Source of the DNA: Campylobacteraceae bacterium
Lineage (GTDB): Bacteria > Campylobacterota > Campylobacteria > Campylobacterales > Sulfurospirillaceae
Direction: 5' to 3'
Assembly (NCBI GenBank): GCA_027040375.1
Contig: JALUMJ010000048.1
Coordinates: 1-12,722, forward strand
DNA length: 12,722 bases
The notes beneath the pieces are model-generated. The model was given only the letters and a program-made list of their open reading frames with translations. It had not been told where the DNA came from and did no database searches. Each line of letters begins with the position of its first letter. Position 1 is the first letter of the stretch. Positions 1 to 3,361 of the stretch are shown here, one piece after another. The translations under genes and the position numbers were made by a program.

Positions 1-9
1 CCATTTAAC

Positions 10-69
10 AGGGGTCAGGGTTTGAATTTTGAATTTATATATAAATTCAAAATTCAAACCCTGACCCCT
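10..69. repeat. Perfect 60-bp palindrome (copy A) upstream of miaA
   Basis: The two 30-base arms (10-39 and 40-69) are exact reverse complements with no spacer; pairing stops at 9/70. Each arm begins AGGGGTCAGGG, continues with a short internal direct repeat of TTGAATT, and meets the other arm in TATATATA. It ends only 1 base before the purine-rich ribosome-binding site of miaA. A near-identical copy lies at 918-975, on the far side of miaA. The lack of a loop, the GC-rich ends and AT-rich centre, and the second copy point to a dispersed repeat (MITE-like or REP-like) rather than a simple terminator. The family is inferred. I recall GGGGTCAGG-ended repeats from other genomes but could not check this. 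Confidence 0.9.
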
Positions 70-70
70 A

Positions 71-77
71 AAAGGAG
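71..77 (+). promoter_or_regulatory. Ribosome-binding site fixing the GTG start of miaA
   Basis: AAAGGAG lies 5 bases before the GTG at 83. The only nearby ATG, at 81, is out of frame and immediately followed by TGA, so it cannot start the gene. The site sits directly against the right end of palindrome A. If transcription comes from further left, the mRNA would therefore carry a 30-bp hairpin immediately upstream of the ribosome-binding site. Confidence 0.7.
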
Positions 78-82
78 TTAAT

Positions 83-916
83 GTGAAGATAACAGCACTA
101 CTTGGTCCTACGGCTTCTGGCAAAACTGCTCGTTCGATTGAGATGGCTGAAAAAGATGATGCTTATATACTCTCTTTGGATTCACTTAGCATTTACAAAG
201 AAATCAACATTGTCTCAGCTAAACCAACCATAGAAGAGAGAAAGGGCATAAAACACTTTGGCATAGACGAGATATATCCCAATGAAAATTTTAATGTTTC
301 TATATTTTTTGATATATTTAAAGAAGCTAAACAACTTGCGATAGAGGATGGTAAAAATCTTATCATAGTTGGTGGTACAGGTTTTTACTTAAAATCTTTG
401 ATAACAGGATTAAGCACGAAACCTGATATCTCTTCAAGCACCAAAGATAATATTAAAGAGATTATGAAAAATCAAAACTATGCTTATGAAATGATTGTTA
501 AAAATGATTATAAATATTCACAAAAGATATCAAGTAATGATTCTTACAGAATAGAAAAGTGGTTAGAAATATTTATAGAGACAAATATTCCGACAAGTGA
601 GTATCTTGCAAAAAATAGACAACCCCCAATCATAAAAGATTTAGAAATCTTAGAAATCTCCATATCAAAAGATATGCTAAGGCAAAGAGTCCAACTAAGA
701 ACCAAAGAAATGTTAAAACAAGGACTTATAGATGAAGTTATTTATCTCGAAAAAAAATATGGACGAACCCCAAACTCTATGAGATCTATTGGCATAAAAG
801 AAGGCTTAGAGTTTTTAGATGGCTTTTTAAACAAGCAACAACTAGAAGAAAAAATAATCACAAACACTATGAGATTGGCAAAACGACAAAGAACCTTCAA
901 CAGAACTCAATTTTAA
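83..916 (+). CDS. miaA: tRNA dimethylallyltransferase MiaA
   Basis: MiaA transfers a dimethylallyl group to N6 of A37 in tRNAs that read codons beginning with U, in the cytoplasm. The 277-aa product has the family signatures in order: P-loop GPTASGKT (8-15), DSLSIY with the probable catalytic Asp33, SAKPT (45-49), the HFGID segment (58-62), IIVGGTGFYLK (94-104), SIGIKEG (235-241) and the C-terminal LAKRQRTFNR (265-274). The start is GTG at 83, supported by AAAGGAG 5 bases upstream. The protein stops only four residues after the KRQRTFNR motif. Relatives I recall are about 290-310 aa, so a short C-terminal tail may be missing. The stop (914-916) is one base from palindrome B, which suggests the element trimmed the 3' end. 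The core is intact and probably functional. The gene converges on pflA. Confidence 0.93.
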   Translation: MKITALLGPTASGKTARSIEMAEKDDAYILSLDSLSIYKEINIVSAKPTIEERKGIKHFGIDEIYPNENFNVSIFFDIFKEAKQLAIEDGKNLIIVGGTGFYLKSLITGLSTKPDISSSTKDNIKEIMKNQNYAYEMIVKNDYKYSQKISSNDSYRIEKWLEIFIETNIPTSEYLAKNRQPPIIKDLEILEISISKDMLRQRVQLRTKEMLKQGLIDEVIYLEKKYGRTPNSMRSIGIKEGLEFLDGFLNKQQLEEKIITNTMRLAKRQRTFNRTQF

Positions 917-917
917 A

Positions 918-975
918 AGGGGTCAGGGCTTGAATTTTGAATTTATATAAATTCAAAATTCAAGCCCTGACCCCT
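918..975. repeat. Perfect 58-bp palindrome (copy B) between miaA and pflA
   Basis: The 29-base arms (918-946 and 947-975) are exact reverse complements with no loop. It matches copy A except for two central bases missing (TATATA instead of TATATATA) and one base pair: C929/G964 here against T21/A58 in copy A. Both arms changed together, so pairing is preserved. It begins 1 base after the miaA stop, and its right end supplies the last two bases of the TAG stop of pflA on the minus strand. The five bases after the right end (AAAAG) are the same in both copies. The element thus lies exactly at the junction of two convergent genes and sets the end of pflA. Confidence 0.9.
918..975. terminator. 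Possible bidirectional terminator formed by palindrome B
   Basis: In RNA from either strand this palindrome can fold into a very stable hairpin with GC-rich base, between two converging genes. Read on the minus strand (from pflA) the stem ends CCCC followed by TTTT, a short U-run. On the plus strand (from miaA) it is followed by TAAAAG, with no U-run. It may therefore stop pflA transcripts moderately well and miaA transcripts poorly. The terminator role is inferred from position and structure only. Confidence 0.4.
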
Positions 976-3361
976 AAAAGAGTTTTAGGTTGTCCTTACA
1001 TAGTGAAGACCATGCGTCTTTTGTTTTTGATGATACACATTTTGTAAAATACTTTTTGGCATTTTTTGTGTCTTTTAGCTTGATGCTTAGCTCGCCTAAT
1101 TCATAAAGTATTCTTGATCTATATTTGCTGTTTACAGATTTTTTGTTTAAATTTATTAGCAACTTATACGCATCTTTATATCTTCCTAATCTTTTAAGTG
1201 CTCCCATATATAGCAATTCTACCTTAGGAGTAAAATCAAAAAGTTTATTTTTATTTTGCATATCAACAATCTTTTTAGCATATTTAATCAACAACAAATC
1301 ATCTCTTGAGTCATCAGCATAATTTACAATTTTCATATAAGAATCTAGGTTTTTTATATCTTTTGGCCATTTCTTAGATAGAACATCTAGTATATCAAGA
1401 GCTTTATCATACTGTTTTTTATAAAAATAGGCATCAAAAATATATCTGTAGCTCGAAGCATATATTTTCTTTTTAAGTATTTTTGATAATTTATACAAAT
1501 CAGTTTTATATTTTATGATATCATCAAATTTTCTAAGTTTTGAATCCACCTCTATTGCTCTTTGTAACCATTTAAAATTTTTAGACAAATTTTTAGATTC
1601 CAATTTATCCATAGTCAACATCTTGGCTTTTTTATATCTCGCACTTATTAAAAAACATTTATATAGCGTATCCTCATCATCTACTTCATAAATATTTAGT
1701 TTATATTTTTCTACTAGATTGACGGCCTTATTGCAATCTTTTGTCTTTAAATTTTTAAATAGAAGATCTGTTGCTGCAGAAACAAGTAAATCTTTTGCCA
1801 CGGTAGAGTTCTTATCGACTGCCCGCTCAAGCATATTTTGCATCTTTAAAACTTTTTTATATTTTTTTTCTTTTAATAACAACTTAGTTTTTTCTATGAT
1901 AGCTTTATCTCGTATGTCGTTATCGTATTTTGAAATAAGTACATCATAATATGCCACTAATTTGGTAGTATTTGTCTCTTTCAATTTAAAAAAAAGTTCA
2001 TCTAAATCCTTTTTTACTTCCTGAATATATAGACCATCTTTATAGAGTTTTTTATAGTCTGTATATCTGGCATATGCTTTATTTATCTCATTTGCTTTGG
2101 CATACCAATCGCCACTCTCTCTTAGGAGCAATTCTCTCGTTTCTCTATCGTTTTTGTTTGTATTTTTATAGAGTAAATCATTTATCACTGCAGCAATTTT
2201 ATATAAACCGTTTGCTGCCAATTCACCTGAGAGCATATGTGAAGCATCTTTGTCTTTTAAAAGATAGTTTTTGTTGGCATTTAAGACTTTTAGTAAATAA
2301 TTCTTAGCTTCTAGCACTTTGCCTATGCTTATATTTGATTTTGTCAATTTAATAGCAGCCATTGATGCTATGTCTAAATTTTTCACACTATACAAAACAT
2401 CTTGATATAATTTAATAGCTTTTTCTTTTTTATTTTTTGCAAAAAGTGAATCTGCATAACGCAATATCGCTTTTTTTGTATAAATGCTATCTTTATGTTC
2501 GCTAACTAAAATATCTAAAAAATAATTTACATCAGAAGCAGAACCTGATCTTAGATAATCTTCTACTAAAATCAACAATACTTGTGGTATATTTTCACTT
2601 GAAGCAAATTTTCTAATCCACTCTTTTCCAAGATTTGCTACATCTGAATTTGTATAATCATTTGAAATTGGGGATAGATTTTTTTCGATAGATTTATTTA
2701 TGACTCTAAGTTTATAGAGCATCATGTCACTCTTAAAGATGCTATTAGGGTATAATCTTAACACCTTATCAACATCTTTTACAACTCCGTCATAATCACC
2801 TTTTTTATACTCTTTTTGTATATCTAGATAATAATTTATATCTTTACTCTGAGCATATGCTATTGGTTTTCCATTTAAATCAACAGGACCAACATGAGGT
2901 TTTAAAAATTTATCATAACTAACAGGAAAATTTATACCATCATTTTGTAATTTTTTACCAAATGGTGGTTTTTTATATAGCAATATTGTCCAATGCTTAG
3001 TATTTTTATTTTCAACTTCGCTTGATACCTCTTTTGTATTATATAATATCTCATTGATTGGAATTAATTTTGAATCAACTTTCGGAGTTATTTTTATATA
3101 AAATTCTTTCTTTTTTTCTAAAAAATCTATATTGACTAGTCTTAATTTTTTAATTTTTATCGGGGTTTTTACTATTTTTTTAAATTGACAAATATAATTC
3201 TTCTTGTCTAGTGCTAGGTGTATAACTTGACAATCAACTGGTTCTTTGTCAATTATATGTAATATAGCATAAGGAAGTCCATTTTCTTTTGCACTATTTA
3301 CATATATATTTAATGCATATAATTGAAAAGTTAAAAGCGGGATTAATAGTATAAATTTCAT
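974..3361 (-). CDS. pflA: Paralysed-flagellum motor scaffold protein PflA (periplasmic TPR protein)
   Basis: In Campylobacter and Helicobacter, PflA is a periplasmic part of the enlarged flagellar motor. It partners PflB in the spoke-like scaffold that holds stator units, and mutants have immobile flagella. The 795-aa product begins with a signal peptide (MKFILLIPLLTFQLYA, cleavage probably near 16-17). A beta-rich N-terminal region follows to about 170, with Cys44 and Cys58 well placed for a disulfide. From about 175 to the end it is helical and TPR-like, for example 185-205, 296-325, 648-668 and 712-775. A second cysteine pair (775, 788) lies near the C-terminus. The assignment rests on length close to known PflA, the architecture, and the position directly after nuoN; TPR sequence alone would not prove it. 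The start is fixed by the signal peptide, yet no ribosome-binding site precedes it. The TAG stop is completed by palindrome B. Confidence 0.82.
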   Translation of the reverse strand: MKFILLIPLLTFQLYALNIYVNSAKENGLPYAILHIIDKEPVDCQVIHLALDKKNYICQFKKIVKTPIKIKKLRLVNIDFLEKKKEFYIKITPKVDSKLIPINEILYNTKEVSSEVENKNTKHWTILLYKKPPFGKKLQNDGINFPVSYDKFLKPHVGPVDLNGKPIAYAQSKDINYYLDIQKEYKKGDYDGVVKDVDKVLRLYPNSIFKSDMMLYKLRVINKSIEKNLSPISNDYTNSDVANLGKEWIRKFASSENIPQVLLILVEDYLRSGSASDVNYFLDILVSEHKDSIYTKKAILRYADSLFAKNKKEKAIKLYQDVLYSVKNLDIASMAAIKLTKSNISIGKVLEAKNYLLKVLNANKNYLLKDKDASHMLSGELAANGLYKIAAVINDLLYKNTNKNDRETRELLLRESGDWYAKANEINKAYARYTDYKKLYKDGLYIQEVKKDLDELFFKLKETNTTKLVAYYDVLISKYDNDIRDKAIIEKTKLLLKEKKYKKVLKMQNMLERAVDKNSTVAKDLLVSAATDLLFKNLKTKDCNKAVNLVEKYKLNIYEVDDEDTLYKCFLISARYKKAKMLTMDKLESKNLSKNFKWLQRAIEVDSKLRKFDDIIKYKTDLYKLSKILKKKIYASSYRYIFDAYFYKKQYDKALDILDVLSKKWPKDIKNLDSYMKIVNYADDSRDDLLLIKYAKKIVDMQNKNKLFDFTPKVELLYMGALKRLGRYKDAYKLLINLNKKSVNSKYRSRILYELGELSIKLKDTKNAKKYFTKCVSSKTKDAWSSLCKDNLKLF

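Follow-up and report, generated by a model that had tools for sequence, protein, structure and literature searches.

TIRYTs, the terminal-inverted-repeat-associated Y1 tyrosine transposases, were described from TIRtrons, in which a Y1 gene lies inside long terminal inverted repeats (TIRs), many of them bearing GGGGWSAS; TIR families were given as moderately abundant in some genomes, many as dimers or clusters (Di Nocera et al., 2013; PMC3733652). In a survey of TnpA-Y1 enzymes, 20 of the 26 published TIRYTs fell into subclass 2.1, which equals Bertels group 1, is prevalent in epsilon-, beta- and deltaproteobacteria, and carries NH[YF]H and Y---NP motifs together with a C-terminal helix-turn-helix (Bac_DnaA_C, HTH_23 or HTH_28); the survey's account of this subclass associates no REP-like sequences with it (Quentin et al., 2018; PMC6006769).

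Here we report on a stretch of 12,722 bases (the window), which is contig C48 of our genome, G000. Like the TIRtrons as described, this genome has Y1 genes between long TIRs with GGGGWSAS, and TIR families that occur as dimers or clusters; unlike them, it has TIRs fused without a spacer into palindromes of 58-60 bp, and in much of a family a gene of this kind is found ahead of gyrA. The NH[YF]H and Y---NP motifs are shared with subclass 2.1, as may be a C-terminal helix-turn-helix, here a sub-cut-off HTH_23, whereas palindromic repeats that match the TIRs depart from what the survey of that subclass records. As in the RAYT/REPIN proposal (Bertels and Rainey, 2011; PMC3116915), paired inverted ends would be the mobile unit, single ends would be remnants, and a cognate enzyme gene lies elsewhere in the genome. 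In contrast to that system, there is no GTAG foot (the GT[AG]G of REP/REPIN sequences is absent, the window-family ends reading AGGGGTCAGGG and pairing fully), the arms abut in one palindrome, and the copies are few rather than hundreds; the copy number of usually more than 100 per genome given for REPs (PMC2817692) is not approached by about eight palindromic loci and two single ends. With the MITEs of PMC3733652 the palindromes share that they are short, non-coding, and have ends common to a transposase-bearing element (26-27 of 27 nt), but no internal sequence is left, and because 60 and 58 bp fall below the 70-300 bp given there, we term them MITE-like.

Two perfect palindromes beside miaA

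The earlier note on this DNA had described a 60-bp and a 58-bp palindrome on either side of miaA (Table 1), and both proved exact, each being its own reverse complement throughout. Since the third-longest perfect palindrome across the window measures just 12 bp, the two are not there by chance; compared by halves, the two copies show 95% and 97% identity across 38 and 37 nt. Copy 1 directly abuts AAAAGGAG, the ribosome-binding site of miaA, and a single base separates the miaA stop (914-916) from copy 2. The 2 nt that copy 2 shares with the stop of the convergent gene had been overlooked. A stop at the equivalent place in a relative without the palindrome (L048) indicates that this gene was not shortened by copy 2. 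An NCBIfam search of the ORF gave no match over cut-off, and the name pflA, taken from the earlier note, is thus not family-based.

Table 1. Features of the window, of the rest of G000 and of the gyrA-linked locus
Feature	Position	Strand	Remarks
Probable palindromic mini-element, copy 1, in miaA 5' leader; two fused TIRs, TTGAATTTTGAATTT type	10..69	.	Perfect palindrome; arms match each TIR of the C45 Y1 element at 26/27 nt
miaA, resident gene between both insertions	83..916	+	GTG start; ribosome-binding site 70-77; TIGR00174 226.6 bits (cut-off 148.65); neighbour order as in relatives
Probable palindromic mini-element, copy 2, between convergent miaA and pflA ends	918..975	.	Perfect palindrome; arms match right TIR of the C45 Y1 element at 27/27 nt, left TIR at 26/27
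Gene named pflA by the earlier note	974..3361	-	ORF; TAG stop 974-976 overlaps copy 2 by 2 nt
Palindromic loci, G000	Both window copies (copy 1 also at C121 end), C50:1319-1373, C96, C98, C104, C132		C104 has lost its 3' end
Shortened palindrome, G000	C50:1 and C45:78-126		One locus
Single ends, G000	C209, C214		
Y1-gene element, G000	C45:5404-6245		842 bp; TTGAATTTTGAATTT end type
Y1-gene element, G000	C211:1308-2151		844 bp; TTAAACTTTAAACTT end type
TIRYT gene of the C211 element	L017:1376-2140 (G000:C211)		gyrA at L017:2215

The window contig starts 9 bases from copy 1, and contig C121 terminates in a near-identical palindrome (71 aligned bases, 99%). Because 598 nt on the left side of this palindrome in C121 align at 91% with the sequence that flanks copy 1 on the left in a relative (L045), C121 very probably continues the sequence upstream. 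Contigs C48, C121 and C50 all start or end in a palindrome or at most 14 bases from one, as would be seen if repeats had been collapsed or contigs misjoined there. Against such an artefact, the genes are in the same order in an independent MAG, where both palindromes lie inside a contig of 48,641 bases (JALUXT010000116.1), and we consider an assembly origin of the arrangement extremely improbable.

A palindrome family with the ends of Y1 elements

Our genome, a 91% complete MAG, comprises 224 contigs that total 1.67 Mb. It holds 20 exact matches to AGGGGTCAGGG, each palindrome counting as two, as opposed to none for the reversed-pattern control, and the palindromes are hence a repeated element, as had been supposed. 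With one mismatch allowed, GGGGTCAGG was no commoner than its reversed control (25/30 versus 20/31), so exact ends alone were counted, and diverged copies are uncountable in this way. Across 120 genomes searched, our own included, the 11-mer was present in 51 and was most frequent in G000 (10/10) and G007 (12/8). Rather than the window pair alone, the incomplete MAG contains about eight palindromic loci, two single ends and two Y1-gene elements. Several contigs break in or near palindromes (position 1 of the window; the ends of C121, C50 and C45), and copy number is therefore probably understated.

Two end types were found among the palindromes, each fitting the TIRs of its own Y1 element, on C45 or C211. 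The arms of the window copies are identical to the C45 TIRs at 26-27 of 27 nt, versus 20-21 of 27 for the C211 TIRs, and so the Y1 gene with the same ends that the earlier note had anticipated is present in the genome; the palindromes on C96, C98 and C104 are of the C211 type. Pairing is free of mismatches from end to end in four of nine stretches (both window copies, C96 and C98). The C132 and C50:1319 palindromes each have a single mismatch at the very centre, C104 pairs as far as its lost 3' end, the version of copy 1 at the end of C121 has one arm mismatch, which may reflect assembly or strain, and the shortened copy is mismatched once at the centre and once in an arm.

None of 11 sites in G000 has an ORF of at least 90 aa spanning the element, and six of them overlap a gene end by 2-22 nt, always the 3' end. 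These overlaps would suit ordinary intrinsic terminators or regulatory hairpins, selected site by site and alike through convergence, and as RNA the palindromes would form very stable folds (-47.3 to -52.4 kcal/mol; z -10.0 to -10.7). Copy 1, however, sits in a 5' leader, and 26-27 identical nucleotides at unlinked sites, which are also those of transposon ends, are not expected by convergence. A scan of both strands of window positions 1-1200 for terminator-like sites found none (0.5 expected), and the window held no Rfam match at gathering scores; the terminator reading was rejected on these two results. The scan demands five T in eight bases and copy 2 is followed on the minus strand by TTTTAAAA, so a weak terminator there may have escaped it. 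Overall, we regard convergence of terminators as very improbable.

Y1_Tnp was matched five times in G000. The C45 and C211 proteins (260 and 254 aa) both exceed its cut-off and have a weak C-terminal HTH_23 match near residues 218-253 (E 8.9e-5 and 0.0012), below the curated cut-off. By eye, their ORFs contain NHYH and YIExNP (YIEYNP and YIETNP), the class 2 HUH and Y motifs (NHuH, Y---NP), and both elements carry GGGGTCAG, which fits the TIRYT consensus, at both ends. The NCBIfam model for REP-associated tyrosine transposases scored 71.2 bits for C211 and 68.9 for C45, both under its cut-off of 80, and the C211 protein had no sequence match among solved structures. By their motifs and TIRs, the two enzymes fit the TIRYT group and would belong to TnpA-Y1 subclass 2.1. 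Two further Y1 genes, L035:1525-2268 (G000:C31) and L039:1576-2247 (C172), are 40% and 43% identical to C211; the former has GGGGTCAGG upstream and the latter is cut by a contig end.

The miaA locus in relatives

MiaA was found in 57 of the 60 genomes searched (our own included), and the misses within the genus, G004 and G006, are MAGs of 92-93% completeness. The best 30 of the 57 matches were compared, i.e. 28 relatives besides our genome and G007. In 12 of the 28, pflA lies downstream of miaA, tail to tail, with 36-88 nt between the matches in 11 and 1173 nt in one; the other 16 have no pflA match within the locus. The miaA flanks of these 28 relatives contained no window palindrome (the downstream flank of L061 covers 12 nt). 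The nearest relative compared, G007 (JALUXT010000116.1; MiaA 92% identical), carries the two palindromes where our genome has them, and its miaA has the same orientation.

The earlier note had proposed that the pair carried miaA to this site. Such a compound cassette would agree with the closeness of both copies to miaA, and either copy could recombine with the other, but the miaA-pflA order without palindromes in 12 of 28 relatives led us to rule it out; together with the presence of MiaA in nearly all the genomes searched, it leaves the cassette hardly any probability. Since relatives have this order without palindromes, the comparison of loci identifies miaA as an ordinary resident gene that was there before them. 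Because G007 has both copies at the same places, the palindromes probably stem from two separate and older insertions that took place before the split of G000 and G007. The geometry would allow the excision or inversion of miaA that had also been envisaged; no case was seen, the orientation being as given above. Nor do the 28 relatives fit the possibility, raised at the same time, of unrelated terminators at the same places, as inverted repeats with arms of at least 14 bp beside miaA were limited to L050 (upstream, 27-bp arms, unrelated) and L071 (downstream, 15-bp).

In 20 of the 28 relatives, the 170 nt upstream of miaA include the sequence G[TC]TATAAT, which is absent from this position in G007 and, by eye, in the C121 sequence; that copy 1 altered the miaA promoter would be a guess. 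The repeat upstream of miaA in L050 (555-670; G008:C22) has a 39-nt loop between its arms and was seen across the genus, with at least 42 matches in G008, 10 in G005 and 9 in G000. In the relative, the interval that separates pflA from the following gene holds a frame resembling aspartate/glutamate racemase by eye (L045:9297-9980); the corresponding part of the window lacks one.

Y1 elements are not known to make a target duplication. The relatives without palindromes, including the nearest one, G001 (75% MiaA identity), are too diverged at the junctions for insertion boundaries to be placed. A site on C180 of G007 with a single end, where C36 of G000 has two bases, is readable as an insertion or a deletion. 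For the C98 site, matches to both flanks were found in G001, G005 and G008 at a separation of 171-750 nt, and the intervals contain no palindrome match; in G007 only repeat matches were found for this site. The flanks of C132, C209 and the C211 element had no match among the G007 loci compared, which does not imply absence.

Substitutions on both arms

Five palindromes are common to G000 and G007 by flanks or place. The comparison took in 5' arms over 27 nt and 3' arms over 21-24 nt (cut outer ends, on C50 and C104, and differing centres excluded). Four of the five have exactly one arm substitution between the species, present on both arms. The change from G000 to G007 is C to T in the miaA-3' copy and the C50/C28 copy, and A to T in C96/C141 and C104/C111. 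The fifth pair shows zero substitutions in the compared arms and a 2-nt difference in the centre. One-sided arm substitutions were not seen in these five pairs, and the flanks of the shared palindromes differ by 3-9% (the left side of C50, one of the five sites, gave no result). A candidate sixth pair, C50:1/C45:78 and G007 C28:13683-13723, was excluded since its members are no more than candidate orthologues and both are degenerate; it carries one-sided mismatches, which speaks against two-arm change as a rule without exception.

The recurrence of the same change at two unlinked sites per type points to copying between sites or to shared pressure. The joint change of the arms may have come about by template switching from arm to arm in replication, by overwriting with fresh copies, or by selection for matching ends. 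As described in PMC7202029, template switching turns imperfect palindromes more perfect.

A TIRYT gene upstream of gyrA

The C211 protein had matches in 43 of the 60 genomes (our own included), and in 27 of 30 loci, one per genome, a gyrA start lies downstream of the TIRYT gene on the same strand, at 72-165 nt in 26 and at 528 nt in one. Seven of eight pairs of the gyrA-linked gene gave a dN/dS of 0.05-0.10 (dS being saturated in one), and the remaining pair is identical; together with the conserved position, this suggests purifying selection and a function in the host, not pure selfishness. A tree of 30 proteins, L181 left out, placed all 16 g3 sequences together (support 0.994) and four g1 sequences of the C211 type together (support 0.988), with g5 and g2 mixed. 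In nine family members without a close TIRYT match, gyrA was found in seven (that of G007 was not), and GGGGTCA was present in none of the seven in the 181-220 nt upstream of gyrA. Given the partly mixed tree and the members whose gyrA has no TIRYT end, losses of the gene or some transfer must be allowed, mostly within the genus of the window. Among the matches listed in our literature search, no title concerned a gyrA-linked tyrosine transposase in Sulfurospirillum, and a search for the end motif together with palindromes and transposase found no match.

TIR pairs could be read in 25 of the 27 gyrA-linked elements; L160 and L181, with one TIR not found, were dropped, and L157, L182 and L183, loci in which gyrA was not found, lie outside the set. 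The paired TIRs of one element were identical over 28 nt in 15 of the 25, and the mean match was 27.2 within and 25.3 between elements. A permutation reached this in 0 of 10,000 trials, a descriptive figure in that it ignores the relatedness of the genomes and that the TIRs had been chosen for their fit to two reference ends. Departures fell on both ends in 25 cases and on one end in 21.

The conservation and low dN/dS of this gene would also suit a different origin, in which the palindromes are host binding or processing sites that Y1 genes took as their ends or were domesticated to process. The sites are few and scattered, however, the C98 flanks occur in three relatives with no palindrome match between them, and each palindrome type matches the ends of one Y1 element; we think this origin improbable. 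We give somewhat more room, though still doubtfully, to a reading in which a host-retained, mostly vertically inherited TIRYT is maintained upstream of gyrA by purifying selection and its ends, about 0.8 kb apart, evolve together. Likeness among the arms of dispersed palindromes, and among unlinked copies, would be upheld by the HUH enzyme or by template switching at hairpins as the copy-editing agent of a small, self-homogenising, REPIN-like population, in a subclass believed to have none. The imperfect copies led us to lower our estimate of it slightly.

Discussion

We judge it highly likely that the palindromes represent non-autonomous mini-elements belonging to a TIRYT system (TnpA-Y1 subclass 2.1) that arrived by two separate insertions beside a resident miaA. 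Each palindrome would consist of two transposon ends joined directly, head to head. The TIRYT HUH/Tyr enzyme, supplied in trans, most likely recognises the AGGGGTCAGGG end on single-stranded DNA, and would cut both ends and rejoin them elsewhere, as has been proposed for RAYT/REPIN. The insertion in the miaA leader and that in the gap separating miaA from pflA would both have preceded the species split from G007, and the palindromes may still be mobile. Of the earlier proposal of a mobile MITE- or REP-like element moved in trans by a Y1 enzyme, the family and the Y1 genes with the same ends thus hold good, the carriage of miaA does not, and mobilisation is what we infer from the common ends.

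Several points count against the mini-element reading: no movement of a palindrome was observed, and the one G007 half-copy with a shorter site in G000 fits a loss as well as a gain; to these come the low copy number of about eight loci, the limitation of end-to-end perfect pairing to four of the nine stretches, the sub-cut-off scores for the REP-transposase model and HTH_23, and the account of subclass 2.1 in PMC6006769, which reports it without REP-like sequences.

If the mini-element reading is true, TIRYTs, a large and little-studied group of Y1 enzymes, would gain a dispersed palindromic partner like that of the RAYTs. For annotation, miaA here is to be treated as an ordinary resident gene. 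The two-arm substitutions make the persistence of long palindromes directly testable, and the gyrA-linked locus is a natural setting in which to ask what makes a bacterial family retain a TIRYT beside gyrA.
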